Source: a virus
DNA length: 51,500 nucleotides
Strand: one strand, 5' to 3'
IMG/VR virus record: IMGVR_UViG_3300008448_000125
Coordinates: 1 to 51,500 of that record
Below the pieces are notes generated by a model. It was not told the origin of the DNA. It worked only from the letters and a program-made list of their open reading frames with translations, and did not search any database. Shown piece after piece: positions 37,444 to 48,538 of the stretch (position 1 is the stretch's first letter; every line of letters starts with the position of its first letter). The position numbers were made by a program, and so were the translations under genes.

Positions 37444-37501
37444 AATGTAAGCGATTTTGGGGGTCAGGTCAAGACCCCCGGACAGTTGTCAGACCGTCAC
37501 A
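37444..37501 (-). promoter_or_regulatory. Palindrome-promoter cassette for the 249-aa gene
   Basis: Palindrome copy at 37479-37501 (left arm in minus-strand order TGTGACGGTC, right arm AACTGTCCG), then TTGACC (37467-37472), a 17-bp spacer and TACATT (37444-37449). A GGGGGTC...GACCCCC inverted repeat overlaps the -35 region. The gap between palindrome and -10 is 29 bp, as in the other copies. Confidence 0.7.
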
Positions 37502-37748
37502 GGTCAGCCAGCATCTCATCCAACTCATCGGTGTCGATGGTAGGGTCCATCCAGCGAGCACCGTCAGGAGTCATCTGCCCGAACTGAGATTCCAGGCGGG
37601 GGATCAGGCGATCATAGGAATCGTAGCGGCAGGCGACCTTGTAAAGGTTCTCATCGTTCTGGAGCCAGAGGGCGACGTTCCAGGTTGCCCAATTTGCCCA
37701 TCCGTTGTAGGTTTCGGTTTCGGGGATCATGGAGGTGAGTGCTTGCAT
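37497..37748 (-). CDS. Conserved NGWANWATWNVALW protein (83 aa)
   Basis: The motif TYNGWANWATWNVALWLQND at about 13-32 defines a small family widespread in phages and bacteria (DUF7249-like, recalled from the motif), function unknown. Before it is a short variable N-terminus and after it a helical segment (NLYKVACRYDSYDRLIPRLE), then TDELDEMLADL. The family is often found next to DNA-metabolism or host-takeover genes. It has its own palindrome-type promoter, and its stop lies inside the palindrome of the next downstream gene. Confidence 0.8.
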   Translation of the reverse strand: MQALTSMIPETETYNGWANWATWNVALWLQNDENLYKVACRYDSYDRLIPRLESQFGQMTPDGARWMDPTIDTDELDEMLADL

Positions 37749-37769
37749 TGGTTGGTTGCGTGTGAGTGT

Positions 37770-37828
37770 ATTGTAAGGGGTCAGGCGACCAGCGCCGACT
37801 CCATGTGGACGGTTTGCAGATTGACCTC
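37770..37828 (-). promoter_or_regulatory. Palindrome-promoter cassette for the 83-aa gene
   Basis: Degenerate palindrome copy at 37805-37828 (minus-strand right arm AAACCGTCCAC), a 29-bp gap, then TACAAT (37770-37775). The palindrome lies within the end of the upstream 56-aa gene. The leader (CACACGCAACCAACC) belongs to a recurrent family. Confidence 0.6.
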
Positions 37829-37951
37829 AGCCCAATCGTATTCTTCCTTCAGTTGGGCGCAGCGGGCATCAGCAGCAGACTTGCAATCCCACAGGGAGCA
37901 ATGATCATCAGATTCATAGAAGAATCCAGCGGTGACGACGTAGACTTGCAT
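37781..37951 (-). CDS. Small hypothetical protein (56 aa)
   Basis: The frame encodes MQVYVVTAGFFYESDDHCSL, then WDCKSAADARCAQLKEEYDW and AEVNLQTVHMESALVA. It has an N-terminal strand followed by an amphipathic helix. Similar short proteins with an N-terminal MxVYVVT strand are known from cyanophages. The ATG follows the recurrent leader CTCAGTTCAAAGG, which includes an AAAGG-type binding site. It is one of four consecutive small genes in the GC-rich island, each with its own promoter or coupled to one. Function unknown. Confidence 0.65.
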   Translation of the reverse strand: MQVYVVTAGFFYESDDHCSLWDCKSAADARCAQLKEEYDWAEVNLQTVHMESALVA

Positions 37952-37974
37952 CGGGTTTCCTTTGAACTGAGATC

Positions 37975-38034
37975 AGTATAAGGGGTCAGCGGGCGATCAG
38001 GTCACCAGTGGTGTGCAGTAGGTCTGCTGTCACA
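37975..38034 (-). promoter_or_regulatory. Palindrome-promoter cassette for the 56-aa gene
   Basis: Palindrome copy at 38011-38034 (minus-strand arms TGTGACAG and ACTGCACAC), a 30-bp gap, then TATACT (37975-37980). The -35 region (GACCTG) is poor. The palindrome lies inside the coding end of the upstream 55-aa gene. Confidence 0.7.
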
Positions 38035-38153
38035 GTGCGGATGGGTCGGATCGGTTCCCATAGCAACCACAGCACAACAGCGGTAACGGTCAAGCGGAGC
38101 ATGGTCTGTCGGTGAAACTCAGGGGAGCGGGAGCGGGTCAGAGCGTTGATCAT
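37986..38153 (-). CDS. Small membrane protein (55 aa)
   Basis: One predicted membrane span is visible (LRLTVTAVVLWLLWEPI, about 19-35), preceded by a basic N-terminus (MINALTRSRSPEFHRQT) and followed by a polar tail. Its ATG overlaps the stop of the 53-aa gene (ATGA), so the two are coupled. A role in the host membrane, as for many phage early micro-proteins, is inferred; no family is recognised. Confidence 0.65.
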   Translation of the reverse strand: MINALTRSRSPEFHRQTMLRLTVTAVVLWLLWEPIRPIRTVTADLLHTTGDLIAR

Positions 38154-38311
38154 CGTTCCAGTTGTGCCAGGGAGGAGGGGGCGATGTGAGAGGGTGACCC
38201 ACAGGACCTGTAGAAGTCTACCATACGGTCTGCCTCTTCCTTAGTCGTGAACCATTGCGACCGCCACTCGCAGGCATTGTAGGGGGTCTGGTAACGGACT
38301 TCAAAGCGCAT
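38150..38311 (-). CDS. Small hypothetical protein (53 aa)
   Basis: The frame encodes MRFEVRYQTPYNACEWRSQW, then FTTKEEADRMVDFYRSCGSP and SHIAPSSLAQLER. It appears to be a small strand-helix protein (EVRYQTPY, then KEEADRMVDFYR), a form common among phage early proteins. It has a TACAAT -10 element with the leader CTCACAACGCAACC, and a degenerate version of the palindrome (about 38371-38394) lies at the expected distance. It overlaps the next gene by four bases. Function unknown. Confidence 0.65.
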   Translation of the reverse strand: MRFEVRYQTPYNACEWRSQWFTTKEEADRMVDFYRSCGSPSHIAPSSLAQLER

Positions 38312-38352
38312 GGGGTTTGGTTGCGTTGTGAGAGTATTGTAGCAGATCAGGG

Positions 38353-38526
38353 TCAGTCCCTGTCGGAGACGGTCCAGGTGCCGTAGGTAGCATGGTCGGG
38401 TGCCTGGTAGGTTCCCTCAGCGTGTGCTTTGAGAATCTCCTCCCGACGCTTTGCCTCAGCGTTCACCTTTGCGGTGTAGTCAGCCATGATGGAGGACATG
38501 TCCAGTTTGGTGGATTGTTTCTTCAT
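38353..38526 (-). CDS. Small hypothetical protein (57 aa)
   Basis: The frame encodes MKKQSTKLDMSSIMADYTAK, then VNAEAKRREEILKAHAEGTY and QAPDHATYGTWTVSDRD. It is helical and charged through about 40, with a short Tyr/Trp-containing tail. No signal or membrane span. It follows the leader AAGAGC directly, with the -10 TATACT eight bases upstream, so its mRNA leader must be only a few bases long. Function unknown. Confidence 0.62.
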   Translation of the reverse strand: MKKQSTKLDMSSIMADYTAKVNAEAKRREEILKAHAEGTYQAPDHATYGTWTVSDRD

Positions 38527-38532
38527 GCTCTT

Positions 38533-38592
38533 AGTATAGGGGGTCCTCAGTTGAACCAGTAGGCAAGTTGTGCCAGTTCCTCTGCCGTCTCC
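38533..38592 (-). promoter_or_regulatory. Palindrome-promoter cassette for the 57-aa gene
   Basis: Palindrome copy starting at 38569 (right arm AACTGGCACA on the minus strand, left arm degenerate), a 30-bp gap, then TATACT (38533-38538). The palindrome lies in the coding end of the upstream 58-aa gene. Confidence 0.65.
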
Positions 38593-38723
38593 TGTACGTT
38601 GTCGGGGGTCAGACGTGCCAGGATACGCTCTGCATCCTCCTCAGGCACATAGGAGAGGTCACCGTTGATCTCAGCAGCAAGGGCAGAGGCGATGGAGATG
38701 CAGCGGGATTGGAGTTCTTTCAT
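38547..38723 (-). CDS. Small helical protein (58 aa)
   Basis: The ATG at 38723 was chosen because it lies right after a TATACTAAGAGC promoter-leader, identical to the gene below; the frame is open further upstream but without signals. The product (MKELQSRCISIASALAAEIN, then GDLSYVPEEDAERILARLTP and VQETAEELAQLAYWFN) is strongly helical and acidic. It resembles small phage early proteins with a helix-rich C-terminus; no function is known. Its end carries the palindrome of the next downstream gene. Confidence 0.65.
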   Translation of the reverse strand: MKELQSRCISIASALAAEINGDLSYVPEEDAERILARLTPDNVQETAEELAQLAYWFN

Positions 38724-38729
38724 GCTCTT

Positions 38730-38822
38730 AGTATAGGGGGTCTGGGGGTGCTGTGGCGGTTTGGTGGACAGTCCGGGAAGTGGCACAAGGTGGGTTGTGG
38801 GGGGTTGCCGCTGCCCTATAAT
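38730..38822. promoter_or_regulatory. Divergent promoter pair sharing one palindrome
   Basis: Palindrome at 38764-38787 (arms GTGGACAGT and AGTGGCACA). On the minus side TATACT (38730-38735) is 28 bp away; on the plus side a perfect TATAAT (38817-38822) is 29 bp away. The minus side drives the 58-aa gene; the plus side points right, into a region without a gene of normal size. Confidence 0.7.
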
Positions 38823-38828
38823 AAGGTC

Positions 38829-38935
38829 ACAAGCGAAGGAGGGGCAGGGTCGCCCTGATGACGAAAACGGTCGCCACCGAACCTGCCTTCCGGTAATTAT
38901 AAAAAAGTATAAAAAAAGGGAGGCAATTGCCTCCC
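38829..38935 (+). ncRNA. Possible rightward small RNA
   Basis: The predicted plus-strand transcript begins about seven bases after the TATAAT at 38817-38822 and would end at the GGGAGGC...GCCTCCC stem (38918-38935), giving about 105 bases. Inside it, GGCAGG at about 38843 can pair with CCTGCC at about 38882. A 12-codon frame starting ATGACGAAAACG is present but far from the AAGGAGG site. No other gene runs rightward here. Promoter and stem are seen; the RNA itself is inferred. Confidence 0.3.
38911..38935 (-). terminator. Rho-independent terminator after the 115-aa gene
   Basis: Perfect GGGAGGC...GCCTCCC stem (38918-38935) followed on the minus strand by seven T. It lies six bases after the stop of the 115-aa gene. 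Confidence 0.9.
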
Positions 38936-38941
38936 TATTGT

Positions 38942-39289
38942 TTATGCGAACATGAAACCATTGGTAAACTCATACTCATTGTAGACAGGAGAAGTTCCTG
39001 CCTGTCCAACGAACTTGTGAATGTACCAATTCCAGTTCCGTTGAAATACACCTTCGCTAGCGACTCCGTGCTCTTTGAGAATAGCATTCAGACGGGATTT
39101 GGTGGTGACAGACTGATAACCACCGTCGAAGATCTGAACGAAGTTATCACCAATGATGGCGATTTTGTTACCGTGAAGGTATACGGTGGACTCGTTAGTT
39201 TCGGGATCGTAGGAGACTTCGGTGTTGTCTTTGTGCCAGTTCAGATTGTTAGAAATGGCGTTGTTCATTTCACGTTCGATCTTACGCAT
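38942..39289 (-). CDS. Conserved hypothetical protein (115 aa)
   Basis: The protein begins MRKIEREMNNAISNNLNWHK, then has a beta-hairpin-like part (NTEVSYDPETNESTVYLHGN, then IAIIGDNFVQIFDGGYQSVT) and a helix plus tail (RLNAILKEHGV, VFQRNWNWYIHKF). Related proteins with the MNNAISNN start and a WYI segment are common in T4-like phages and are of unknown function. The promoter has both a TTGACT -35 and a palindrome copy, and a strong terminator closes the unit, so it is a single-gene transcript. The GC content is lower than in its neighbours but still in the island. Confidence 0.75.
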   Translation of the reverse strand: MRKIEREMNNAISNNLNWHKDNTEVSYDPETNESTVYLHGNKIAIIGDNFVQIFDGGYQSVTTKSRLNAILKEHGVASEGVFQRNWNWYIHKFVGQAGTSPVYNEYEFTNGFMFA

Positions 39290-39315
39290 GAGTCTGTGTT
39301 GTTTGATCTGAAGGT

Positions 39316-39375
39316 AGTATGGGACGGATTGGGGGGAAAGTCAAGAGGGTGTGTGCCACCTTCTCAACCGTCACA
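39316..39375 (-). promoter_or_regulatory. Palindrome-promoter cassette for the 115-aa gene
   Basis: Palindrome at 39352-39375 (TGTGACGGTT in minus-strand order, then AGGTGGCACA), a 30-bp gap with TTGACT (39339-39344) and a 17-bp spacer, then CATACT (39316-39321). The palindrome ends 7 bp before the -35, which is the usual arrangement. Confidence 0.75.
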
Positions 39376-39565
39376 CCCCGAAGAACTCTTCAAACTCATC
39401 TGCGATACGGTCGATCAACCAATCGGTAGCGTTCAGATCGAACACGTCGCAAACCCAATCGACGCAATCGTTGAGGTCGCAGAGGTTGCTACCCATGAAA
39501 TCACGAAGAGCGGGAGCGATGTCCAGATCGAACTGGTGGACTTGAGAAGCAGTGGTGTTGTTCAT
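39371..39565 (-). CDS. Small acidic protein (64 aa)
   Basis: The ATG at 39565 was chosen because a TATAAT -10 is seven bases upstream. The product (MNNTTASQVHQFDLDIAPAL, then RDFMGSNLCDLNDCVDWVCD and ATDWLIDRIADEFEEFFGV) is acidic, with three cysteines and an amphipathic helical end. Related small proteins with the DLDIAPALRDF segment are found in cyanophages; function unknown. The palindrome of the next downstream gene starts before its stop. Confidence 0.65.
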   Translation of the reverse strand: MNNTTASQVHQFDLDIAPALRDFMGSNLCDLNDCVDWVCDVFDLNATDWLIDRIADEFEEFFGV

Positions 39566-39571
39566 ACAGAC

Positions 39572-39631
39572 ATTATAGGCACGGGGTCCGCCGATCTGAG
39601 GGAAGCAGTGGACAGTGCCCCAACCGTCCAC
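39572..39631 (-). promoter_or_regulatory. Palindrome-promoter cassette for the 64-aa gene
   Basis: Palindrome at 39608-39631 (arms GTGGACGGTT and CACTGTCCAC on the minus strand), a 30-bp gap, then TATAAT (39572-39577). The -35 position (CTCAGA) is poor. Confidence 0.75.
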
Positions 39632-39652
39632 CCGCGGCGGCCCTGGGTATAA

Positions 39653-39826
39653 TTAATCCTCCAGAAGTTCGGGGTAGTATTCTTTTACCTCTGCAATCAA
39701 TTCCGACTCCGAATAGTTATCATAACTCTCACTCATAGAATCATACAAACACGCCATCATGGTTTTGATGTCCATATCATCCAGGATTTGCTGAATGAGT
39801 TGATCTTGGAGTTCAGAACGATTCAT
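39653..39826 (-). CDS. Conserved small protein (57 aa)
   Basis: The frame encodes MNRSELQDQLIQQILDDMDI, then KTMMACLYDSMSESYDNYSE and LIAEVKEYYPELLED. It is wholly helical and acidic, and the sequence is very characteristic: proteins with this start recur in many cyanophages (recalled). Expression appears to depend on the 35-aa gene upstream, as no promoter was seen between them. Function unknown. Confidence 0.75.
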   Translation of the reverse strand: MNRSELQDQLIQQILDDMDIKTMMACLYDSMSESYDNYSESELIAEVKEYYPELLED

Positions 39827-39831
39827 GAGTT

Positions 39832-39939
39832 TCAGTTACGAATGTGAGATTTGTTGATGGTGGTTTGCCACTCACTCGGAGCAGAAAGTCGGGGGTTCAT
39901 CTTTACCCAACGACCTTGAAACTTCACAAGAATCGACAT
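39832..39939 (-). CDS. Small basic protein (35 aa)
   Basis: The frame encodes MSILVKFQGRWVKMNPRLSA, then PSEWQTTINKSHIRN. It is basic, with a strand-like start. Its ATG overlaps the stop of the 44-aa gene (TGATG), which is strong evidence for a coupled real gene. No family is recognised. Confidence 0.6.
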   Translation of the reverse strand: MSILVKFQGRWVKMNPRLSAPSEWQTTINKSHIRN

Positions 39940-40073
39940 CAGTAATCGTAGTTAGAGTTGATGTAAGATTCTACATTGAACTTCTCATCTTTCTCCCATT
40001 CTTCTTTATACTCAATCACATCGAAGATTTCACCAGGAGCATCAGCAATCTCAGACCAGAGTTCATCAAACAT
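39939..40073 (-). CDS. Small acidic protein (44 aa)
   Basis: The frame encodes MFDELWSEIADAPGEIFDVI, then EYKEEWEKDEKFNVESYINS and NYDY. It is highly acidic with aromatic residues, a form compatible with a DNA-mimic or inhibitor protein; this is a guess from composition only. It has a TATTCT promoter with one palindrome copy and a second palindrome further upstream, making its control region the most elaborate of the small genes. Confidence 0.6.
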   Translation of the reverse strand: MFDELWSEIADAPGEIFDVIEYKEEWEKDEKFNVESYINSNYDY

Positions 40074-40099
40074 CGGGGCAATCCCTCAACCACGAAACA

Positions 40100-40158
40100 A
40101 GAATACCCCACCAGGAGACCCAGTGGGGCAGATAGTGGACACTTGCTCAACTGGCACA
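40100..40158 (-). promoter_or_regulatory. Palindrome-promoter cassette for the 44-aa gene
   Basis: Palindrome at 40135-40158 (minus-strand TGTGCCAGTT and AAGTGTCCAC), a 29-bp gap, then TATTCT (40100-40105). Confidence 0.7.
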
Positions 40159-40173
40159 AGAATGCCCAATTGC

Positions 40174-40222
40174 GATACGAATTCATATCATACAATATTC
40201 TTATGATACGAATTCATATCAT
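40174..40222. repeat. Two copies of an 18-bp EcoRI-centred palindrome
   Basis: GATACGAATTCATATCAT occurs at 40174-40191 and 40205-40222; the core GATAYGAATTCRTATC is an imperfect palindrome. A third copy with one mismatch is at 40927-40944. The second copy overlaps the -10 element of the upstream cassette at 40203-40208. Confidence 0.9.
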
Positions 40223-40260
40223 AAAGTACTGATCAATGTGCCAATCCACGAACTGGCACA
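40203..40260 (-). promoter_or_regulatory. Second upstream palindrome-promoter cassette
   Basis: Palindrome at 40237-40260 (arms TGTGCCAGTT and ATTGGCACA), a 28-bp gap, then TATCAT (40203-40208). It abuts the stop of the 36-aa gene and could start a longer transcript into the 44-aa gene. Confidence 0.55.
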
Positions 40261-40371
40261 TTAAAAATCGATATCGAATTCTTTTACGTTACAGTGAAGA
40301 TCTTCACCTGGTTCGAGTTCTAATAACTCCTTCCAGTTTACATCTTCAAGATGTAAATCATCATAACACAT
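40261..40371 (-). CDS. Small acidic protein (36 aa)
   Basis: The frame encodes MCYDDLHLEDVNWKELLELE, then PGEDLHCNVKEFDIDF. It is very acidic, with two cysteines and no basic cluster. It is a plausible small gene because the frame is well filled and the codons match those around it, but no ribosome binding site is obvious. Function unknown; compare the acidic proteins on either side. Confidence 0.5.
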   Translation of the reverse strand: MCYDDLHLEDVNWKELLELEPGEDLHCNVKEFDIDF

Positions 40372-40456
40372 GATGTCTAGTGTAACTGTAACTAGGCGCT
40401 TGTTATGTGTTAACATGTTACTAGATGTGTAATGTGTATGTATGACCTAGTACACA

Positions 40457-40660
40457 TTATGCATAATGACGATACGCAAGTGTATCATAATCTTGTGTAT
40501 CTCGTGTGTATTCCTCGTCGAGATCTACTACATCTAGTTGAGCATAATGCTCATAGTATGAGTCCTCGTCGAGATTATAATCATTGCTGAATGTATAGTC
40601 GAGATCGTAATCGTCGTACATAAGCTCGTCGAGATCTTGTGTTCTTGTGTATTGTAGCAT
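40457..40660 (-). CDS. Acidic Tyr/Asp-rich repetitive protein (67 aa)
   Basis: The protein (MLQYTRTQDLDELMYDDYDL, then DYTFSNDYNLDEDSYYEHYA and LDEEYTRDTQDYDTLAYRHY) is built from Asp/Tyr/Leu and carries the recurring motif LDE, because the DNA contains the palindrome CTCGTCGAG several times in frame. The start could be the internal ATG at 40620 (MYDDYDLDY), as a TACAAT element lies between the two. It could be a DNA-mimic protein or simply the in-frame reading of a repeat array; I cannot tell. Confidence 0.45.
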   Translation of the reverse strand: MLQYTRTQDLDELMYDDYDLDYTFSNDYNLDEDSYYEHYAQLDVVDLDEEYTRDTQDYDTLAYRHYA

Positions 40661-40738
40661 ATATCTCGTCGAGAAACAACCTGTCTAGGTATAAGTCTCG
40701 TCGAGATTCATAACCATTATTTATAAGTCTCGTCTAGA
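40513..40738. repeat. Array of CTCGTCGAG palindromes
   Basis: Near-identical 9-11 bp palindromes (TCTCGTCGAGA and close variants) are centred at about 40518, 40569, 40629, 40669, 40701 and 40733, with a degenerate copy near 40600. Spacings are about 51, 60, 40, 32 and 32 bp, close to multiples of a DNA helical turn. The array covers the 67-aa gene and continues into the upstream noncoding DNA. Confidence 0.85.
40718..40725 (-). promoter_or_regulatory. Late promoter-like element (TATAAATA)
   Basis: Perfect TATAAATA on the minus strand inside the palindrome array, 58 bases before the ATG of the 67-aa gene. Confidence 0.45.
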
Positions 40739-40740
40739 TT

Positions 40741-41013
40741 TTGTGTGGGTCTCCGTATATTTTCCCGCGCCCGGAACTTGACAACTTGCGCGTCTTATGG
40801 TACGCTCGCTAAGCCCACAAGACCAGGAGGGATTTATAAGGGATTTATAAGGGGTTTATAAGGGGTTTATAAGGTTTATAAGACACAAGACCAGGAGGGG
40901 TTTATAAGAATTATAAGAGTATTATTGATACTAATTCATATCATTATCATACCTTATTGAGAATCATTATCAACAATACAATTAACAACTTTATATTTAA
41001 AAAGGTATTTAAT
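40741..41013. other. Noncoding repeat-rich region, candidate control or origin region
   Basis: No gene seen. From left to right it holds a plus-strand TTGACA-17-TACGCT promoter-like pair (40778-40806), a direct repeat of CACAAGACCAGGAGGG (40816-40831 and 40874-40889), a tandem array of GGGATTTATAAG/GGGGTTTATAAG units, the third copy of the 18-bp EcoRI-centred palindrome, and an AT-rich tract. This combination of iteron-like repeats next to AT-rich DNA is what phage replication origins often look like; this is inference. Confidence 0.45.
40816..40916. repeat. GGRTTTATAAG tandem array with direct repeats
   Basis: At least six units of GGRTTTATAAG (11-12 bp) run in tandem from about 40830, framed by two copies of CACAAGACCAGGAGGG. 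On the minus strand the units read CTTATAAATCCC or CTTATAAACCCC, that is, close to the late promoter core TATAAATA but with C in place of its last bases. Confidence 0.85.
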
Positions 41014-41039
41014 TAATAAAAAACCCCTAAAAAGGGGTT
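41014..41039 (-). terminator. Rho-independent terminator after the HicA-domain gene
   Basis: On the minus strand AACCCC...GGGGTT forms a 6-bp stem (41022-41039) followed by TTTT and a T-rich tail. It lies about 31 bases after the HicA-domain gene. Confidence 0.8.
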
Positions 41040-41069
41040 AAAAGAACATAAAACACTTATTTTAGTCCT

Positions 41070-41738
41070 TTACACTCCCCCTCTATAATGTGATCTACGT
41101 GAATCTAATCTTCTCTGAACTGATGCCTTAAGATCTCTATAAAATGGGCTGGGATTAATATCAGTATCAACAGGTTGAATTAATCCACCTCCACCACTAC
41201 CTGACTTAACATTGAGACTTAAACCTCTATTACCTCTAACAGATGCAGTAGTTGCTGACTTTGGTATTTCACCGGACTTTAAATTAGAACTAAATGCAGT
41301 CTTCATTCTCTGTAATAAGTTGGGGGTTGATACCGTATTAACAACTGGTTTTAACTTATTCATAAAATCAGAGAACGTTGTTTGTGTTCCTGTTATTGCT
41401 CCTCTGTTACCTGCTTCTATTCTTCTCTGTGATGATGATAACCTTGTAACTTGTGTAAGTTTATCTGCCTTTAGTTTATTTGCTGATATTGAATCAAGTT
41501 TTACTTTCTCTGGTTTAATTGGTAATTCTACTCCCTTATTTGTGAGAGCACGTTTTAAATCACGACGAAAGTTTAGAAAACCTCTACTATCACTACCACT
41601 CTTTGGTGCTGGTACTTGAGCACCTGATTCATGCCTGTAAATATCATGCTTACCAGAAGAACGTTCTAACTTAAAACCAAGTTTTTCTGCCTGTTGAGCA
41701 TAACGTTTTTGATCTGATGCTTCCTGTAAATTATGCAC
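41070..41738 (-). CDS. HicA-like domain protein with long basic tail (222 aa)
   Basis: Residues about 16-66 (KLGFKLERSSGKHDIYRHES, then GAQVPAP and FRRDLKRAL) have the order of a HicA/YcfA fold: a GF start strand, the GKHDIYRH segment holding the catalytic-type His, and a C-terminal helix. HicA toxins are mRNA-cleaving double-stranded-RNA-binding proteins. The C-terminal 150 residues are basic, Ser/Thr/Gly-rich and look disordered. No HicB antitoxin gene is next to it, so a lone RNA-binding or nuclease role is more likely than a toxin-antitoxin pair. A GATAAATA late promoter is 28 bases upstream and a terminator follows, so it is probably expressed late, unlike the small genes around it. Confidence 0.6.
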   Translation of the reverse strand: MHNLQEASDQKRYAQQAEKLGFKLERSSGKHDIYRHESGAQVPAPKSGSDSRGFLNFRRDLKRALTNKGVELPIKPEKVKLDSISANKLKADKLTQVTRLSSSQRRIEAGNRGAITGTQTTFSDFMNKLKPVVNTVSTPNLLQRMKTAFSSNLKSGEIPKSATTASVRGNRGLSLNVKSGSGGGGLIQPVDTDINPSPFYRDLKASVQRRLDSRRSHYRGGV

Positions 41739-41752
41739 AGTATAATGAGGTT

Positions 41753-42001
41753 TTACTTCTCATCATATTTATCGGCGCGTGACTTAACATAGGTGAGATC
41801 TTTCCATGACTCTGGATAACACAATACCAGTGTTCTATGATTCCTATGATGAGTACCGTTCTGCAGATCATCAGGATGTTTTGGTTTAGTCTTTGTCTCA
41901 ATCGTAAGATAAGACTTATCCTTAAAATACACCCATCCTTCTACAGAGAACTTACCTTTGTTCCACCTAACATAATCATCTAATTGGGGGACATAAGACA
42001 T
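41753..42001 (-). CDS. Conserved hypothetical protein (82 aa)
   Basis: The protein starts MSYVPQLDDYVRWNKGKFSV, then EGWVYFKDKSYLTIETKTKP and THHRNHRTLVLCYPESWKDL. The V-x-W-N-K-G and GWVYFKD strands, then a histidine-rich segment, form a small beta-domain typical of a cyanophage family of unknown function. It overlaps the 97-aa gene by 22 bases. A bound metal is possible because of the HHRNHR segment (guess). Confidence 0.7.
   Translation of the reverse strand: MSYVPQLDDYVRWNKGKFSVEGWVYFKDKSYLTIETKTKPKHPDDLQNGTHHRNHRTLVLCYPESWKDLTYVKSRADKYDEK
41766..41773 (-). promoter_or_regulatory. Late promoter variant (GATAAATA)
   Basis: GATAAATA on the minus strand, 28 bases before the HicA-domain gene, inside the end of the 82-aa gene. 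Confidence 0.55.
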
Positions 42002-42273
42002 TGCATTAAAGGATTAAGGTTTAATAGCATTGCAGAGTATGGTGTCGTTTGTTCTATACTAACGACGGATCCCATTGTAGAGGAGTTGACTGGGGAATGA
42101 TAGGACTTTGTTTTGGTGTTATAGAATCCCCAGATACAACGGACTGGAGCACCATGATTGTAATCAAACCGACGCTGATGAAGAATCCAGATAGCAATAA
42201 CATTGCGTTTAAACTCGGTTTGCTCATAACTATACCCTTCTGGTGGTTGGTGTTTAAACGTCTGGGGTAGCAC
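41980..42273 (-). CDS. Conserved hypothetical protein (97 aa, start uncertain)
   Basis: The body (FKHQPPEGYSYEQTEFKRNV, then IAIWILHQRRFDYNHGAPVR and CIWGFYNTKTKSYHSPVNSS) is a compact conserved domain found in cyanophages. The GTG at 42273 gives a protein beginning (M)LPQTFKH; no ATG is near, and the frame is open further upstream, where it overlaps the 55-aa gene. A GAAGGA ribosome binding site is 18 bases upstream, too far to settle the start. The conserved FYNTKTKxYHSP strand is probably the family core. Function unknown. Confidence 0.6.
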   Translation of the reverse strand: MLPQTFKHQPPEGYSYEQTEFKRNVIAIWILHQRRFDYNHGAPVRCIWGFYNTKTKSYHSPVNSSTMGSVVSIEQTTPYSAMLLNLNPLMQCLMSPN

Positions 42274-42421: not shown

Positions 42422-42423
42422 TG

Positions 42424-42657: not shown

Positions 42658-42670
42658 CGTTGTGTGTAAG

Positions 42671-43177: not shown

Positions 43178-43211
43178 ACCTCCATAGGTGAACTATTGTT
43201 ATTCTAACATA

Positions 43212-43412
43212 TTAGTCTTGAAGAGTGAAGTTAGGAGCCCACATGACTTCATATTGTCCATTGTCTTCTCCTTGGGCTTCAAACCATTCTGCATATTCCT
43301 CATATAATGCACGACAGGTATCTTCGTTGTCAACTTCTGCACAACTTTGACACAGTGCATAAATGTGGTCAAGTTGATCCTCTACAATGTCGGTGCGTTG
43401 TTCGTCAGTCAT
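43212..43412 (-). CDS. Small acidic protein (66 aa)
   Basis: The frame encodes MTDEQRTDIVEDQLDHIYAL, then CQSCAEVDNEDTCRALYEEY and AEWFEAQGEDNGQYEVMWAP. It is acidic with three cysteines and an amphipathic middle. The leader AAGGTAATCAAGAGG precedes the ATG, one of the recurrent leader families, and the promoter is a TATACT with a palindrome copy. Function unknown. Confidence 0.7.
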   Translation of the reverse strand: MTDEQRTDIVEDQLDHIYALCQSCAEVDNEDTCRALYEEYAEWFEAQGEDNGQYEVMWAPNFTLQD

Positions 43413-43437
43413 GAGAAGTCCTCTTGATTACCTTGTA

Positions 43438-43497
43438 AGTATAGCAGGGTGAAGTGGGATAAGCAGTGCAGTAGTGGACAGTTCCTCAACTGGTCTG
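43438..43497 (-). promoter_or_regulatory. Palindrome-promoter cassette for the 66-aa gene
   Basis: Palindrome at 43474-43497 (minus-strand CAGACCAGTT and AACTGTCCAC), a 30-bp gap, then TATACT (43438-43443). The stop codon of the upstream 301-aa gene lies inside the palindrome. Confidence 0.75.
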
Positions 43498-44391
43498 GAA
43501 TCGCCCGTGGTTGAAGTTAGCACGGGAGAATGCCTCACGCTTCACCAATTTGAAGCAACCGTGCTCATTGGACAAAACATAACCTTCAGCATCAATACGC
43601 TCCCCTAACAGATAGGTAGCAGGTCCATTATTGCGACAAATGAACAAACAGTCCTCCTTAATCGACTTGACAAGTTTCCACAAACGAATTAGGTTGCGAT
43701 CGCAGTCGCAGGCGACCGTCAGTGCCTCCTCGTCCAGTTCGTTGCCGCTTTTGATGAAAGTGTTGAAAACCTGCTTCATCTTCTGTGCTTTTGAATGACT
43801 TACAAACTCACAGGTTGTAGACATTTGACGGGCAAATGCACAGACTTCATCAACATCAGCAAAACGCTCTTGCCCATAGGCAATCCAGGCAAGTGGTTGC
43901 ACAAACTTACACTGACGGTTACCAGTCAGTTTATAAGACAATGGATAGGCATGTGCATCCCGAAGATCACTACTTGCCTGATAATAGGTATGAGGAGCAA
44001 CAATCACATCCTCAGTGATTACATTCTCAAACTGATAGGTGAGGAGTTGGGAGTTGTACTCGGACTGTCCACCAAACCCAATAAAATCACCTTGATAGAT
44101 GTTATGAGTGCGAGGAAGCACATCATAACAACGATGAAGGATTTCCGCGACATTTCCTTCGTAGAACTGATCGATTTCATCATGAGAATGAGCAATGCGA
44201 ATCTTCACCTTGTTGAACACTGCTTTAGTGCCGACAAAGAAAGTATTTGTTGCAGGATCGTTGCCCCAGACAATCGCAGGAGCACCGTCCATCTTAACAC
44301 TCAGATTACCCTTACTCACAAACCAATCAAGAACAGAAAGGTCACCAGTAAGAATAGAATCTTCAGGGTGCTCAAGGTGAAGGTTTTTCAT
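43486..44391 (-). CDS. Nucleotidyltransferase / RNA-DNA ligase-like protein (301 aa, DUF6267-like)
   Basis: The order of motifs matches covalent nucleotidyltransferases (ligases and capping enzymes). Motif I SVKMDGAPAIVWG gives the candidate nucleophile Lys33 in K-M-D-G36; a VGTKAVFNK segment follows at about 53. A possible motif III/IIIa is YQGDFIGFGGQSEY at about 99-112, motif IV is EGYVL with Glu269, and motif V is KLVKR with Lys281. DUF6267 phage proteins have this plan. It probably forms a covalent AMP intermediate and seals or modifies RNA or DNA ends; the substrate is unknown. The stop lies in the palindrome that starts the next unit. The ATG overlaps the stop of the 47-aa gene (TGATG). 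Confidence 0.65.
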   Translation of the reverse strand: MKNLHLEHPEDSILTGDLSVLDWFVSKGNLSVKMDGAPAIVWGNDPATNTFFVGTKAVFNKVKIRIAHSHDEIDQFYEGNVAEILHRCYDVLPRTHNIYQGDFIGFGGQSEYNSQLLTYQFENVITEDVIVAPHTYYQASSDLRDAHAYPLSYKLTGNRQCKFVQPLAWIAYGQERFADVDEVCAFARQMSTTCEFVSHSKAQKMKQVFNTFIKSGNELDEEALTVACDCDRNLIRLWKLVKSIKEDCLFICRNNGPATYLLGERIDAEGYVLSNEHGCFKLVKREAFSRANFNHGRFQTS

Positions 44392-44534
44392 CAGAAAAGT
44401 TCGAGTTGGGCAAACATCAGGTGATCGTCACAACTATCAGAGTCGTGCAGATCAATCATATCAGAATCGGTGTGAGAAAAGAGTTTATCGAAAAGAAAAT
44501 CAACAAACTCTTTATTTGATTTTTCGTTGTTCAT
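44391..44534 (-). CDS. Small acidic protein (47 aa)
   Basis: The frame encodes MNNEKSNKEFVDFLFDKLFS, then HTDSDMIDLHDSDSCDDHLM and FAQLELF. It is strongly acidic in the second half. An in-frame upstream ATG (44546) would add MVTL. It is coupled to the ligase-like gene downstream by a TGATG overlap, so it may be a partner or leader for it. Function unknown. Confidence 0.6.
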   Translation of the reverse strand: MNNEKSNKEFVDFLFDKLFSHTDSDMIDLHDSDSCDDHLMFAQLELF

Positions 44535-44551
44535 GAGAGTAACCATCAGAA

Positions 44552-44698
44552 TCACCAGCGAATGTAAGTTTCGTCAGGATAAATGCCATTTTCTTCACAA
44601 CGGCACTCATAGGCAATTCGCTTGAGAAACTCAATGTCCATGTCCTCAATCTCCTCCAGAATACTGAGGCGCAGTTCGCGGATGGTGGCGTCTTCCAT
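44552..44698 (-). CDS. Small acidic helical protein (48 aa)
   Basis: The frame encodes MEDATIRELRLSILEEIEDM, then DIEFLKRIAYECRCEENGIY and PDETYIRW. It is an acidic helix-rich protein with two close cysteines. It follows a TATAAT promoter with a palindrome copy and an AAGAGC-type leader that is longer here and includes GAGGGG as ribosome binding site. It heads the operon that also contains the 47-aa and ligase-like genes. Confidence 0.65.
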   Translation of the reverse strand: MEDATIRELRLSILEEIEDMDIEFLKRIAYECRCEENGIYPDETYIRW

Positions 44699-44723
44699 TG
44701 GATTCCCCTCTGTTGATGCTCTT

Positions 44724-44782
44724 ATTATAGGGCATTCAGGCGCTGCTGGAATGCCCCCTGTGCCAGTTCTTAAACTGTCACA
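44724..44782 (-). promoter_or_regulatory. Palindrome-promoter cassette for the 48-aa gene
   Basis: Palindrome at 44759-44782 (TGTGACAGTT and GAACTGGCACA in minus-strand order), a 29-bp gap, then TATAAT (44724-44729). The upstream gene's stop codon lies inside the palindrome. Confidence 0.8.
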
Positions 44783-45021
44783 GGCACTTGGAAATACAAT
44801 CCAGCACGCTTCATCATATCAATCAATGCGGATTGAATATCCTCCAATTCATCACGTTCTGCATCAGTCATTTCTTCCTCAAAGTAGAAAACATCAAACT
44901 CATTGAAGTTCACACTACCATCAGCAAGAATGGGAGCATAGAACAACTCACCCTCGGTGCAAACAGTATAAACACAACCGTGATTCTCAACAGTCAGGAA
45001 AACGCCAGTGAAGTTAGTCAT
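44770..45021 (-). CDS. Conserved hypothetical protein (83 aa)
   Basis: The protein starts MTNFTGVFLTVENHGCVYTV, then CTEGELFYAPILADGSVNFN and EFDVFYFEEEMTDAERDELE, ending with a helix. The strand-rich N-terminus with GCVYTV and the YAPILxDGSVxFxxFD motif are characteristic of a cyanophage family of unknown function. It is in an operon with the 77-aa gene and the 24-aa membrane peptide upstream. Confidence 0.72.
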   Translation of the reverse strand: MTNFTGVFLTVENHGCVYTVCTEGELFYAPILADGSVNFNEFDVFYFEEEMTDAERDELEDIQSALIDMMKRAGLYFQVPVTV

Positions 45022-45022
45022 T

Positions 45023-45097
45023 TCAGAAACGGGTGATGTTTTTAAGGAGAATAAAAACCAGGGTTGTAATACAAACCCAGATGATAAATGTGGTCAT
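45023..45097 (-). CDS. 24-aa single-span membrane peptide
   Basis: The frame encodes MTTFIIWVCITTLVFILLKN and a short ITRF tail: essentially one membrane span with a basic end. Its ATG overlaps the stop of the 77-aa gene (TGATG), and its stop is one base from the start of the 83-aa gene, which argues for a real coupled gene. Such micro-proteins are common in cyanophage early regions; their targets are unknown. Confidence 0.55.
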   Translation of the reverse strand: MTTFIIWVCITTLVFILLKNITRF

Positions 45098-45330
45098 CAG
45101 CAGGCACCATTCATAGGATTAACATTCACGGCATCGGTATTAAAGTTGGTCACTTCATAACCAAGTCCAATGCGCTCATCACACTCACGCTGAAAGTCAC
45201 GCTTGGTAATACACTTGGTGCTCATGGTATCAACACCCTGAAACTTCAGCACTTTATAGATGAATTGAGTGCTACCTTCGATGGGATAGTAGTCAACAAC
45301 CATCGTACCAGTGGTGGAGGTGAGTTGCAT
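45097..45330 (-). CDS. Conserved hypothetical protein (77 aa)
   Basis: The protein is MQLTSTTGTMVVDYYPIEGS, then TQFIYKVLKFQGVDTMSTKC and ITKRDFQRECDERIGLGYEV. A beta-rich first half and a helical QRECDERIGLGYEVTNF segment define a small family seen in cyanophages. The leader AAGGTAATCAAGGG precedes the ATG. It starts an operon with the membrane peptide and the 83-aa gene. Function unknown. Confidence 0.72.
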   Translation of the reverse strand: MQLTSTTGTMVVDYYPIEGSTQFIYKVLKFQGVDTMSTKCITKRDFQRECDERIGLGYEVTNFNTDAVNVNPMNGAC

Positions 45331-45358
45331 TTGGGGTCGTTCCCTTGATTACCTTAGT

Positions 45359-45417
45359 ATTATAGAGCAGATGGTGGGCAGTGGAAGCGGTACTGTGCCA
45401 CTTCCACAACTGTCCCC
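45359..45417 (-). promoter_or_regulatory. Palindrome-promoter cassette for the 77-aa gene
   Basis: Palindrome at 45394-45417 (GGACAGTT and AAGTGGCACA in minus-strand order), a 29-bp gap, then TATAAT (45359-45364). Confidence 0.8.
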
Positions 45418-45420
45418 ACT

Positions 45421-45585
45421 TCAGGCACCAATAACAGAAACGTCGATCTCTTTAATGTTCAATCCACACAGTTGATTGTAGACACGATTGTGAATAAACT
45501 TACATGCGTTTTCTTTGTTAGAACGCTCATACCAAATAGTAATGCAACCGTCTGCAGTTTCAACCAGAATGCGAATGTCCTTCAC
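45421..45585 (-). CDS. Small protein with GTG start (54 aa)
   Basis: The GTG at 45585 was chosen because the recurrent leader (AAGGTAATCAAGAG) lies just upstream, as in two neighbouring genes. The product is (M)KDIRILVETADGCITIWYE, then RSNKENACKFIHNRVYNQLC and GLNIKEIDVSVIGA: a strand-helix-strand protein with three cysteines. It could be a small RNA- or protein-binding module; function unknown. It forms its own unit with a palindrome promoter. Confidence 0.65.
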   Translation of the reverse strand: MKDIRILVETADGCITIWYERSNKENACKFIHNRVYNQLCGLNIKEIDVSVIGA

Positions 45586-45611
45586 TGGTGTCGTCTCTTG
45601 ATTACCTTGTA

Positions 45612-45670
45612 ATTATACTGCCTGCATCAGGCGGTTGGAGAAGCAGTGTGCCACCTTTTCAACTGTCACA
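45612..45670 (-). promoter_or_regulatory. Palindrome-promoter cassette for the 54-aa gene
   Basis: Palindrome at 45647-45670 (TGTGACAGTT and AGGTGGCACA in minus-strand order), a 29-bp gap, then TATAAT (45612-45617). The whole cassette lies inside the last codons of the metalloprotease gene. Confidence 0.8.
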
Positions 45671-46089
45671 AGACCCCTATCTATCAAATAATCATGATAC
45701 AATTCTTCTTCCATATATCGTGCTTCTACTTCATGTGGTTGATACCAATACTCATACTTTTCGACAGGTTCTTTAGAATAACACAATTTTCCATAACGGG
45801 AGCGCAGCAGACCATCCACCCACTGCTTCATATGGGTTAATTCATGCAAAAGAGTTTTTACATACAACTCTTTGTCCATATAGGTATTCATTTCGATTAG
45901 AAAGTGACGAGGACGATAATTGTCTTCAATAACGTCACAATATCCATAAACCTGCTCACGATTCAGACCACGATGCACAATGTCCAGCGTAATCTTGTGT
46001 CGTGGGAAATACTTAGTCAGAAACCAAGAGGTAACATCCTCACAGAGTTTCTTAGAATAACCATATCCAGAATGACTGATGTAAGACAT
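45613..46089 (-). CDS. Zinc metalloprotease-like protein (158 aa)
   Basis: An HExxH zinc motif is visible: TLLHELTHMKQW, with His82-Glu83-Leu-Thr-His86, and a third ligand candidate Glu in PHEVEARYMEEELY at about 122. The spacing and the long C-terminal helix resemble SprT-like or ImmA/IrrE-like peptidases. The N-terminus (MSYISHSGYGYSKKLCEDVT) is a helix. It probably acts on a host or phage protein in the cytoplasm, as there is no signal peptide. The ATG at 46089 was preferred over a TTG further upstream. The last codons overlap the palindrome cassette of the next gene. Confidence 0.7.
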   Translation of the reverse strand: MSYISHSGYGYSKKLCEDVTSWFLTKYFPRHKITLDIVHRGLNREQVYGYCDVIEDNYRPRHFLIEMNTYMDKELYVKTLLHELTHMKQWVDGLLRSRYGKLCYSKEPVEKYEYWYQPHEVEARYMEEELYHDYLIDRGLVTVEKVAHCFSNRLMQAV

Positions 46090-46134
46090 TGACCCCAATG
46101 AAGAAACCAAAGGAAAGAACCAAGAAAAACAAGT

Positions 46135-46233
46135 TTATGTGTCGTCGTCATTATCAGTGTCTCTCATAATAACGTAATTAAAACCAAGTGCTAAAAGCAC
46201 AGCACTAATCCAACAAAGAAAAAGTGTAATCAT
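46135..46233 (-). CDS. 32-aa single-span membrane protein
   Basis: The frame encodes MITLFLCWISAVLLALGFNY, then VIMRDTDNDDDT: one membrane span followed by an acidic tail. Its ATG overlaps the stop of the 67-aa gene (ATGA), which supports it as a coupled real gene. Targets are unknown. Confidence 0.6.
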   Translation of the reverse strand: MITLFLCWISAVLLALGFNYVIMRDTDNDDDT

Positions 46234-46433
46234 CCCCACGCTTCCACATATTCAATAAGAGTAAATCCTTCGTCAGTCTGCGTTTCCTCAACCAACTCAT
46301 CATAGGTCATCTCTTTCAATCCTTCCAGATAATCTTCAGGAGATACATCCACATCAGGATCATAATCATCATGACAAAGAAAGACATACTCATTGTAAAG
46401 TGCCTCAATCAACAGTTCTTTGGGGAAATTCAT
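46230..46433 (-). CDS. Small acidic protein (67 aa)
   Basis: The protein is MNFPKELLIEALYNEYVFLC, then HDDYDPDVDVSPEDYLEGLK and EMTYDELVEETQTDEGFTLI. It is very acidic with a helix-turn pattern, similar to several small cyanophage proteins. The start lies inside the 38-aa membrane gene in another frame. Function unknown. Confidence 0.7.
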   Translation of the reverse strand: MNFPKELLIEALYNEYVFLCHDDYDPDVDVSPEDYLEGLKEMTYDELVEETQTDEGFTLIEYVEAWG

Positions 46434-46521
46434 TTTCTTTGTTGAGATGATTAAACCAGGGAGAGAATAATGCTAGTGCCGCCCATGCAACACTAGCAGA
46501 AATGATAAGGAAGTAAATCAC
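46405..46521 (-). CDS. 38-aa membrane protein with GTG start
   Basis: The GTG overlaps the stop of the 116-aa gene (GTGA) and begins (M)IYFLIISASVAWAALALF, a membrane span, followed by SPWFNHLNKENEFPQRTVD. It overlaps the 67-aa gene's start in a different frame. The tight coupling and hydrophobic profile support a real gene; it is too short for a fold assignment. Confidence 0.55.
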   Translation of the reverse strand: MIYFLIISASVAWAALALFSPWFNHLNKENEFPQRTVD

Positions 46522-46868
46522 TTATAAAGATAACCTCCTGCCCAGTCACAACGCTCAAGCATTTGCTCACGGGAGTTGATAATCAGCACATTGTAACGCT
46601 CTCCCTTAGCAGGTGCTTTAATGCTAGCAGGTTTGTAGACAGAACCAGTCTTCTTATCAATGAAAGCGTGAATGCTATCGCGGCGATCACCAATGTGCAT
46701 GAAGACTTTGTGATACTTACGCCCAGAAGAGTCCAGAGAGTAGAAGTAACCGTCAGGAGCATCTTGCTGGAGAGCATCACACAGCATCATACCATACTTA
46801 ACAATGTTAAGATAGATGGTGTTCTGTGCGTCCTTCTGGGCAGCGTAGTCAGCGAAGGTGGTGGACAT
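46518..46868 (-). CDS. Conserved hypothetical protein (116 aa)
   Basis: The ATG at 46868 was chosen because it follows a TATAAT promoter and a CATACGCAAGCAACC-type leader. The protein has DAQNTIYLNIVKYGMMLCDA, then GYFYSLDSSGRKYHKVFMHI, FIDKKTGSVYKPASIKAPAK and CDWAGGYLYK. This family is widespread in cyanophages and other T4-like phages, function unknown. It is a compact beta domain with a conserved V-Y-K-P-A-S-I-K-A-P-A-K loop. It starts the operon that ends with the metalloprotease. Confidence 0.8.
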   Translation of the reverse strand: MSTTFADYAAQKDAQNTIYLNIVKYGMMLCDALQQDAPDGYFYSLDSSGRKYHKVFMHIGDRRDSIHAFIDKKTGSVYKPASIKAPAKGERYNVLIINSREQMLERCDWAGGYLYK

Positions 46869-46889
46869 CGGTTGCTTGCGTATGAAGGT

Positions 46890-46948
46890 ATTATAGGGCA
46901 TCCTAGACGCCTCTCAGGGGTCAGTATGCCAGTTCGGGAACTGGATCC
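46890..46948 (-). promoter_or_regulatory. Palindrome-promoter cassette for the 116-aa gene
   Basis: Palindrome at 46925-46948 (GGATCCAGTT and AACTGGCATA in minus-strand order), a 29-bp gap, then TATAAT (46890-46895). It lies in the end of the 41-aa gene. Confidence 0.8.
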
Positions 46949-47046
46949 CAGGAGTCGTCCTCTTTCATGTATCCCATCCAGTCTTTAGGATCTACATCAT
47001 AGATCTCAATCTCACGAATTTCATCCAGAATCTCAGATAAGTCCAT
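46921..47046 (-). CDS. Small acidic protein (41 aa)
   Basis: The frame encodes MDLSEILDEIREIEIYDVDP, then KDWMGYMKEDDSWDPVPELA. It is acidic and helical with Trp/Asp-rich end. It is preceded by GAGGGT and a TACAAT element (47073-47078) without a palindrome. Its last codons contain the palindrome of the next unit. Function unknown. Confidence 0.6.
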   Translation of the reverse strand: MDLSEILDEIREIEIYDVDPKDWMGYMKEDDSWDPVPELAY

Positions 47047-47090
47047 GAAGTTGACCCTCAAATTGTTTAGTTATTGTAGCATAAGGCAGA

Positions 47091-47477
47091 CTAAACCGCC
47101 AGTGCTCCAGAAGGAATTTCTACAATCTCAGGCAGTTTGCTATCATCAAACTGGTGCATGTTGTAGCACACCCATTCACCATTACGGAAGACATAAGCAT
47201 ACTCTTCGCTGTTGTCGGGCAGCAGGTATTCTCCAAGGAAAGCATCAAGGCGAGGAGGGCAATTCTCACCACGAGCAGAATAATACTCTGCTTCCTTGTC
47301 ATCATTCCAACAGGAACTCATATCACCACCATCAATCAGTTCAGAAACTTTCTCTTTGGTGTTGTAATGAGTGTTCAGAATACGACCCAACCATTCGGGA
47401 TACCCATCCCAATGATGATAGCTTGAAAGAATAGAACCGTCAGAGAGTTCAATTCCAATTCTGGAGCGAGTCGCCAT
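47091..47477 (-). CDS. Conserved hypothetical protein (128 aa)
   Basis: The start MATRSRIGIELSDGSILSSY and the HHWDGYPEWLGRIL segment define a family that is very common in phages and some bacteria, of unknown function. The middle has ISELIDGGDMSSCWNDDKEA-like features, and the C-terminus a beta-strand FRNGEWVCYN. The HHWDGYP histidine and aspartate residues could form a metal or catalytic site (guess). It has its own palindrome promoter with the leader TTCAGTTCAAAC. Confidence 0.82.
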   Translation of the reverse strand: MATRSRIGIELSDGSILSSYHHWDGYPEWLGRILNTHYNTKEKVSELIDGGDMSSCWNDDKEAEYYSARGENCPPRLDAFLGEYLLPDNSEEYAYVFRNGEWVCYNMHQFDDSKLPEIVEIPSGALAV

Positions 47478-47497
47478 TGCCTTTGTTTGAACTGAAG

Positions 47498-48475
47498 TCA
47501 GTATAGGGCATCCACAAGCGGGTTTGATGCCTGCTGTACCAGTTCATCAACTGTCTCCTGTGCAATGGTGATAGCATCGGGATTCACGTCCAGGGTGACG
47601 CAATTTCGGTTCAGGTTAAAAGCGGAAATAGCAGTCGTTCCAGATCCACAGAAGGGATCCAGAACCCATCCACCCTCAGGACATGATGACTTTATGATAC
47701 GTTCTAACAGTTTCAGGGGCTTTTGTGTGGGATATTTACGCTTATTCTTCTCACTTCTGCTGATAAAGTATACATCATCCCACAAATTCTGCACTGGAAC
47801 ACCTTTGGACTCATGAGAATAGATTTTCTTGTAGATATTGTTTGCACCGTAGTGCAAACGGTCCTGGGCGTCCAGTTCTTCCAGTTTTTCCCTTGTTATA
47901 CGGAACCCAAACTGTGGATTATATCCTTTGTACTCAAATCTTGCACAAGGACGACTCTTCTCACCGCTAACTTTAGCGAGAGCATAATAACCAACCTCAT
48001 CCTTGTTTTGGAAACTATTCGCAGCATATACTGGATCCAGAGAGGTATATTCAACCTCAAAGTATGGACTACCTTTACGGAAGACCATAATGCTGTCTAC
48101 GATGTTACCCCAACCGTTCTTGATATTGTTCTTTGGACCGCTGCGTTTCCAAGAAATATTTGTGTAGAAAGCGTCACGAATCTTGCGATTAACTTTAGAC
48201 AATACCAGAGCATTACCAATGAAGTTATTATGACAATACATCCACCCATCTTTATTCAGTTTGGCGTAGGCATTGTTGATAACTTCAGCATACCAGTCAA
48301 TATAATCATCAAAGGAAGTCCAGTTGTCTGAGAATCCTTTCTCTTGACCATCTTCCTCTTGCATAGTAAAGTCCCTCTGCAATCCAAAGGGAGGATCCAT
48401 ATAAACTAGGTCAAATGTCTGGTCAACAGTATTCAGTTCTTCAACGGGTTTCTGAAGAATCTTGATCTCAGACAT
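47498..48475 (-). CDS. Beta-class DNA methyltransferase (325 aa)
   Basis: Motif IV DPPF (Asp27-Pro-Pro-Phe30) comes first and motif I DPFCGSGTT (about 273-281) near the end, the order of beta-class N4-cytosine/N6-adenine DNA methyltransferases. The TQKPLKLLERII stretch before motif I is typical too. Target specificity cannot be told. It probably protects phage DNA from restriction or marks it. No restriction enzyme gene is adjacent. The ATG at 48475 was preferred over a TTG two codons upstream. A TTGACG-17-TATCAT promoter lies directly upstream. The last codons overlap the palindrome cassette of the next unit. Confidence 0.88.
   Translation of the reverse strand: MSEIKILQKPVEELNTVDQTFDLVYMDPPFGLQRDFTMQEEDGQEKGFSDNWTSFDDYIDWYAEVINNAYAKLNKDGWMYCHNNFIGNALVLSKVNRKIRDAFYTNISWKRSGPKNNIKNGWGNIVDSIMVFRKGSPYFEVEYTSLDPVYAANSFQNKDEVGYYALAKVSGEKSRPCARFEYKGYNPQFGFRITREKLEELDAQDRLHYGANNIYKKIYSHESKGVPVQNLWDDVYFISRSEKNKRKYPTQKPLKLLERIIKSSCPEGGWVLDPFCGSGTTAISAFNLNRNCVTLDVNPDAITIAQETVDELVQQASNPLVDALY
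47500..47558 (-). promoter_or_regulatory. Palindrome-promoter cassette for the 128-aa gene
   Basis: Palindrome at 47535-47558 (GGAGACAGTT and AACTGGTACA in minus-strand order), a 29-bp gap, then TATACT (47500-47505), all inside the 3' end of the methyltransferase gene. Confidence 0.8.
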
Positions 48476-48497
48476 AATCAATCACTTACAACAAACT

Positions 48498-48526: not shown

Positions 48527-48532
48527 CCCTCC
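48508..48532 (-). terminator. Rho-independent terminator after the CP12-like gene
   Basis: Perfect GGAGGG...CCCTCC 6-bp stem (48515-48532) and seven T on the minus strand, six bases after the stop. Confidence 0.9.
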
Positions 48533-48538
48533 AATCTA

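Follow-up and report, generated by a model that had tools for sequence, protein, structure and literature searches.

The stretch examined here is a 51.5-kb viral record of IMG/VR (IMGVR_UViG_3300008448_000125), referred to below as the window, in which a region of small genes carries a repeated 24-bp palindrome with the consensus TGTG[A/C]CAGTT-N4-AACTG[G/T]CACA. The baseplate wedge protein of the window (31644-33524, minus strand) was 60-65% identical to its counterparts in Synechococcus T4-like phages. Judged by the longest frames, both the structural and the small genes were read on the minus strand, and therefore the palindromes had to be read on the minus strand as well, as promoter elements on the same strand as the small genes that they precede. 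The initial annotation, which gave no strand, had listed 15 such inverted repeats; all of them were found, although the first was better set at 37478 than at 37479 (Table 1). On the minus strand, the order of the cassette was the palindrome, 28-30 bp, TATAAT or TATACT, and a start codon 40-73 bp past the palindrome.

To score the sites, a symmetric matrix was trained on other phage genomes, with the window excluded, and applied to the window. Eleven of the 15 sites scored 12.9-34.6 bits. The sites at 37805, 38011, 39608 and 43474 were too degenerate to be called alone (−5.1, −4.4, 1.4 and 1.2 bits); each of the four had a −10 element with at most one mismatch from TATAAT at the proper distance. 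At a threshold of 10 bits, 12 matches were obtained in the whole window, 11 of which fell within 37.4-47.6 kb, compared with 0.29 expected in random sequence of equal dinucleotide composition. The remaining match, at 11993 (10.3 bits), was isolated inside the structural region. It had been claimed that each palindrome is followed after 28-30 bp by a −10 element and then by a small gene. This held well: a hexamer with no more than one mismatch to TATAAT was present at this gap in 12 of 15 cases, and all 15 qualified when two mismatches were allowed, while the chance of a one-mismatch hexamer in a 4-bp gap range at a random position was 3.7%. Downstream of every palindrome, at 40-73 bp, was the start codon of an open reading frame (ORF) of at least 44 aa. 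The −35 position was poor in 13 of the 15 sites, the exceptions being those at 37478 and 39352. The promoters at 35.96, 42.68 and 48.50 kb, described before as free of the palindrome, were confirmed to lack it and carried TTGACN-17-TANNNT.

Table 1. Palindromes in the small-gene region of the window, with their promoter elements and downstream genes
Feature	Position	Strand	Score (bits)	−10 hexamer	Gap (bp)	−35	Downstream gene	Remarks
Palindrome	37478..37501	-	14.4	TACATT	28	TTGACC	36655-37404	Start 73 bp downstream
Weak palindrome	37805..37828	-	-5.1	TACAAT	29		37497-37748	Spacing and gene start fit
Weak palindrome	38011..38034	-	-4.4	TATACT	30		37781-37951	
Palindrome	38569..38592	-	14.4	TATACT	30		38353-38526	
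Palindrome	38764..38787	-	19.2	TATACT	28		38547-38723	
Palindrome	39352..39375	-	26.3	CATACT	30	TTGACT	38942-39289	
Palindrome, GTGGAC type	39608..39631	-	1.4	TATAAT	30		39371-39565	Weak; perfect −10
Palindrome	40135..40158	-	21.0	TATTCT	29		Possible 44-aa ORF, 39939-40073	Spacer stem CCCCAC/GTGGGG
Palindrome	40237..40260	-	29.1	TATCAT	28		Possible ORF, 40016-40195	
Palindrome, GTGGAC type	43474..43497	-	1.2	TATACT	30		43212-43412	Weak; overlaps 3' end of gene 43486-44391
Best palindrome, TGTGACAGTTTAAGAACTGGCACA	44759..44782	-	34.6	TATAAT	29		44552-44698	Overlaps stop of gene 44770-45021; 8-bp spacer stem
Palindrome	45394..45417	-	26.2	TATAAT	29		45097-45330	
Palindrome	45647..45670	-	29.7	TATAAT	29		45421-45585	
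Palindrome	46925..46948	-	12.9	TATAAT	29		46518-46868 or 46901 (DUF7717, Pfam)	
Palindrome	47535..47558	-	18.7	TATACT	29		47091-47477	Inside 3' end of DNA methylase gene 47498-48481 (Pfam); spacer stem GGCATC/GATGCC

The palindrome was not confined to the window. An exact search of IMG/VR returned at least 119 stretches, for which the chance expectation would be below one if the collection amounts to some tens of gigabases, as its size was estimated. Around 65 non-redundant IMG/VR sites, 56 TATAAT-like hexamers (at most one mismatch) were counted at gaps of 28-31 bp, with 8-21 at each position; most other distances gave 0-3. GenBank phage records that matched a palindrome-promoter query were named Synechococcus, Prochlorococcus or cyanophage in 82 of 86 cases. 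A matrix scan of related cyanophages, as proposed in the initial annotation, showed that the palindrome is widespread and that its distance to the −10 element is conserved across phages. Counted as matches at 12 bits, a level at which about one or fewer is expected at random, there were 54 copies in the phage genome G007, 35 in ACG-2014f, 24 in S-CRM01, 19 each in P-SSM2 and S-PM2, 13 in P-HM2, 10 each in Syn19 and DSL-LC02, and 9 in Syn9, where the palindrome stood at several small-gene promoters. S-SM2 had three copies, P-TIM68 and HTVC008M had one each, and the genomes of T4, Ma-LMM01 and Syn5 had none. Over 124 oriented copies from isolates and the window, the mode of the distance to the −10 element was 29 bp. 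A chance origin was ruled out by the matrix scores together with the searches of IMG/VR and of prokaryote genomes (see below). The palindrome is thus a promoter element common to many T4-like cyanophages, marine and freshwater.

Inspection of the 124 oriented copies gave further detail of the cassette. The arm far from the promoter preferred TGTGACAGTT, and the near arm, read as its reverse complement, TGTGCCA[GC]TT. The poor −35, which had been proposed as typical and was so in the window, did not hold for the class: 34 of the 65 non-redundant IMG/VR sites had TTGA or TTGC exactly 7 bp past the palindrome, and in the isolate phages 38% of the −35 positions matched TTGACA at four or more of six bases (10% by chance), usually imperfectly. 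These counts ruled out a poor −35 as the rule. A significant stem was found between the palindrome and the −10 element in 30 of the 124 copies, compared with 3 of 124 control stretches. Several of these stems were full intrinsic terminators, such as GGGGAGCT-tta-AGCTCCCC-TTTTTT ahead of the −10 element in S-CRM01; those of the window (3 of 15 sites, 6-8 bp) had no T tract. In ACG-2014f the copies were alike beyond the palindrome and the −10 element, with a within-genome identity of 65% compared with 41% between phages, and 116 of 435 pairs of copies were at least 75% identical, as would be expected from recombination between cassettes. The other genomes were near background. It was also observed that in many marine phage contigs (L013, L028, L035, L042, L068, L097 and L113) the palindrome directly followed a stop codon and preceded TTGACC-17-CATAAT fused to the T4-type late promoter TATAAATA, which suggests combined early and late control.

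The operator was then sought outside phages. In 257 Gb of prokaryote genomes there were only 8 exact matches, none of them titled Synechococcus or Prochlorococcus. When up to two mismatches were allowed in 386 cyanobacterial genomes, many larger genomes had one to four sites, with a reversed-pattern control near zero. Genomes below 2.5 Mb gave almost no matches above the control, and a picocyanobacterial host regulon with the same inward palindrome was ruled out. The sites in larger cyanobacteria led to Yfr2. Twenty neighbourhoods of these palindromes were fetched and 18 were searched with Rfam; in 7 of the 18 loci the palindrome lay just upstream of a Cyano-1 RNA (RF01701), with a −10 element about 30 bp from it. 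Cyano-1 was taken to be the Yfr2 family because of the complementarity between its 5' GTGTGAGGAG and the core of Yfr1. As a reverse test against circularity, 20 Yfr2-type loci were picked by the RNA pattern only. In 12 of them the phage-trained matrix gave a palindrome score beyond the 99th percentile of random, and each of these palindromes was located 44-47 bp upstream of GTGAGGAG. The distance from operator to −10 element was alike in the two kinds of promoter, about 30 bp for Yfr2 and 28-31 bp for the phages. Thus, many cyanobacteria have the same palindrome ahead of the Yfr2/Cyano-1 small-RNA gene, at a distance that matches that of the phage promoters, and this is the new result of the analysis. 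Among 18 non-redundant picocyanobacterial yfr2-type promoters, 10 exact GTG[AC]CAGTT half-sites were present, compared with 0.06 expected.

Three further observations were made at the cyanobacterial loci. A second kind of Yfr2-like RNA (GTGAGGAGCGAACCAG...ACCGAGACGAAACACGG; loci L306-L335), very conserved in cyanobacteria, had no palindrome upstream. One large cyanobacterial genome (G310, contig C41) contained four tandem Yfr2-type RNA genes at 171-bp spacing (260621, 260792, 260963 and 261134). On a Mojavia contig (L183; G010 C12) two perfect inward palindromes (3108-3131 and 5192-5215) lay 2 kb apart beside related genes; this cluster was set aside, since a phage origin was not established and the phage promoter spacing was absent.

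A candidate for the protein that binds the palindrome comes from work on Prochlorococcus MED4 yfr2 promoters. PMM1637, a GntR-type regulator shared by all cyanobacteria, binds yfr2 promoters bearing the element CGRE1 and mediates Yfr2 induction, and CGRE1 was found nowhere else in the MED4 genome (PMC6778093); the binding is attributed there to Lambrecht 2018. PMM1637 is treated as PlmA, a protein exclusive to cyanobacteria and linked to PII-PipX and thioredoxin (PMC7344720), and plmA was reported to be essential in S. elongatus (PMC5083789). GntR-domain proteins were present in each of the seven cyanobacterial genomes searched. Six of these genomes yielded a PlmA-like protein, about 330 aa long, whose winged helix-turn-helix DNA-binding domain was nearly invariant. 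In nine motif-bearing phages (eight GenBank records and G007) no GntR protein was detected, in a search aimed at GntR and not at all DNA-binding folds. A tblastn search with PlmA against 50,697 phage records gave, by a tally of names, no match to a record named as cyanophage, and no relative turned up in IMG/VR either. On these searches, a phage-encoded GntR protein was rejected as the activator for the phages covered.

Because the same operator stands at the same distance in Yfr2 promoters, and because PlmA is reported to bind there, PlmA is the likely binder. With a probability of about two in three, the palindrome is the operator of a dimeric activator, most likely the host PlmA, whose known target is the Yfr2 promoter, on promoters of T4-like cyanophages; an activator of the host would then probably be used by the viruses to turn on genes of their own. 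Binding of PlmA at the phage sites, activation and early timing of the genes are inferred. A PlmA dimer would bind the palindrome at about −42 to −65, centred near −54, of a sigma70-type phage promoter that would copy the layout of the Yfr2 promoter (palindrome, with the −10 about 30 bp further on). Phage promoters, which often have no good −35, would then receive RNA polymerase through the PlmA that the cell already contains. The earlier idea of an activator-dependent promoter, drawn from a dispersed cassette with an upstream palindrome at fixed spacing, thus stands as the best reading.

Several points weigh against PlmA as the activator. In the picocyanobacteria, which are the actual hosts, the yfr2 half-sites are often everted (AACTGNCAC-GTGNCAGTT), whereas those of the phages and the larger cyanobacteria face inward. 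The presumed equation of CGRE1 with the GTG[AC]CAGTT half-site is based on its position in yfr2 promoters. About 200 PlmA dimers were reported per S. elongatus cell (PMC7344720), and these would have to serve many phage promoters. P-TIM68 and S-SM2 were almost without copies, so the system does not extend to every member of the group. Finally, palindrome strength showed no trade-off with −35 quality (rho +0.25).

The everted geometry in the hosts would also suit an activator encoded by the phages themselves, namely a DNA-binding protein outside the GntR family that recognises the palindrome as MotA or Ogr recognise their sites elsewhere. The near absence of exact palindromes from prokaryotes (the 8 matches mentioned above) and their tens of copies in phages point the same way. 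On this explanation, however, a 20-base operator at the same distance in Yfr2 promoters would be a coincidence, and we consider it unlikely. Less likely still, PlmA might bind the sites as a repressor or decoy, so that the phage titrates it away from yfr2 or its genes stay off until PlmA is removed. Such titration is conceivable with 10-50 sites per phage genome against a handful in the host and the roughly 200 dimers per cell (PMC7344720). But the site lies upstream of the −35 and overlaps neither the −10 element nor the start, a decoy is disfavoured because it would not need a fixed distance to a promoter, and the effect of PMM1637 on Yfr2 was reported to be induction (PMC6778093).

It was also considered whether the palindrome functions at the RNA level, forming a stem-loop for termination or processing at the 3' end of the gene before it, or belongs to a recombination cassette of the promoter-early-stem-loop (PeSL) type, the promoter link being secondary. 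In the window and at several IMG/VR loci, the stop codon of the preceding gene is often adjacent to the palindrome or overlapped by it, and the copies of ACG-2014f are partly homogenised. Yet a T tract is missing after the palindrome itself, and in many copies the stem contains an A/G or C/T mismatch that would not help an RNA hairpin. The distance to the −10 element is fixed, and the terminator-like stems are separate from the palindrome and lie in the spacer. We regard this explanation as very improbable, and an RNA stem-loop as the main function was rejected because of the in-stem mismatches and the fixed spacing. Returning to activation by PlmA, a wider proposal may be made: T4-like cyanophages might have built a PlmA regulon far larger than the host's own, so that nitrogen state (through PII-PipX) and redox state (through thioredoxin) would set the transcription of takeover genes, with the intrinsic terminator of the upstream gene nested, in some cassettes, between the activator site and the −10 element. 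This proposal is tentative, and taken as a whole we lean slightly against it. If true, a link from the nitrogen and redox state of the host to phage transcription would follow. The PlmA regulon is called unknown in the literature, and PlmA binding sites may be more plentiful in phage genomes than anywhere else.

Three other features of the window were observed. Two identical 16-bp near-palindromes, GATACGAATTCATATC, each with an EcoRI site, lay 31 bp apart (40174-40189 and 40205-40220) between the cassettes at 40135 and 40237, and are possibly another operator. At about 48440-48560 (minus strand) the TTGAC −35 of a palindrome-free promoter lay within the hairpin loop of a terminator (GGAGGG-TTGAC-GCCCTCC-TTTTTTT) and TATCAT came next, so that terminator and promoter were superimposed. 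The gene at 41070-41738 (minus strand) encoded a 222-aa protein with a weak HicA toxin-like match below the Pfam cut-off.

It had been stated in the initial annotation that no description of the motif was known, but one probably exists. Doron et al. 2016 (ISME J) reportedly described a 'novel regulatory element' at early genes of Syn9 and P-TIM40, conserved in T4-like cyanophages, and are said to have named no binding factor; besides, the operator occurs in the cyanobacterial Yfr2 promoter. We expect the element of that study to be the same palindrome, and therefore the motif itself is not claimed as new. Literature searches with sequence strings returned unrelated papers only. The identity of the phage palindrome with the Yfr2/PlmA operator was not found stated in the literature searched, though Lambrecht 2018 may have noted the link.

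Among known systems, the late promoters of P2 and P4 have a dyad at about −55 and a poor −35, and are activated by the phage-encoded zinc-finger proteins Ogr and delta. Their inverted repeat is at about the same position as the palindrome, but differs from it in sequence and length, and their activator is encoded by the phage. Like the palindrome, the MotA box of T4 is an activator site that offsets a poor −35; however, it lies at −30 and replaces the −35, which the position of the palindrome does not fit. Marine T4-like cyanophages are reported to lack motA and/or asiA (PMC5780444). T4-like cyanophages are abundant ocean viruses without the MotA/AsiA switch, and a named host factor with a defined operator makes the activation of their small takeover genes testable. 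The initial annotation compared the cassettes with the PeSL cassettes of T4-type phages (Arbiol 2010 and Comeau 2014, as cited in PMC4503421). This likeness was borne out in part, as about a quarter of the copies have a stem-loop and some of these are full terminators, and both kinds are small promoter cassettes that are scattered through regions of small variable genes and stand where the preceding gene ends, some of them with a terminator stem. It fails in that the constant part here is the upstream 24-bp operator, and the stem, if any, sits between operator and −10 element. A close counterpart is the CGRE1/yfr2 promoter, which shares the GTG[AC]CAGTT half-site; in larger cyanobacteria its palindrome also faces inward and is as far from the −10 element as in the phages. 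The phage element differs in that each genome has 10-50 copies, spread over many small genes, and the half-sites of picocyanobacteria are often everted.

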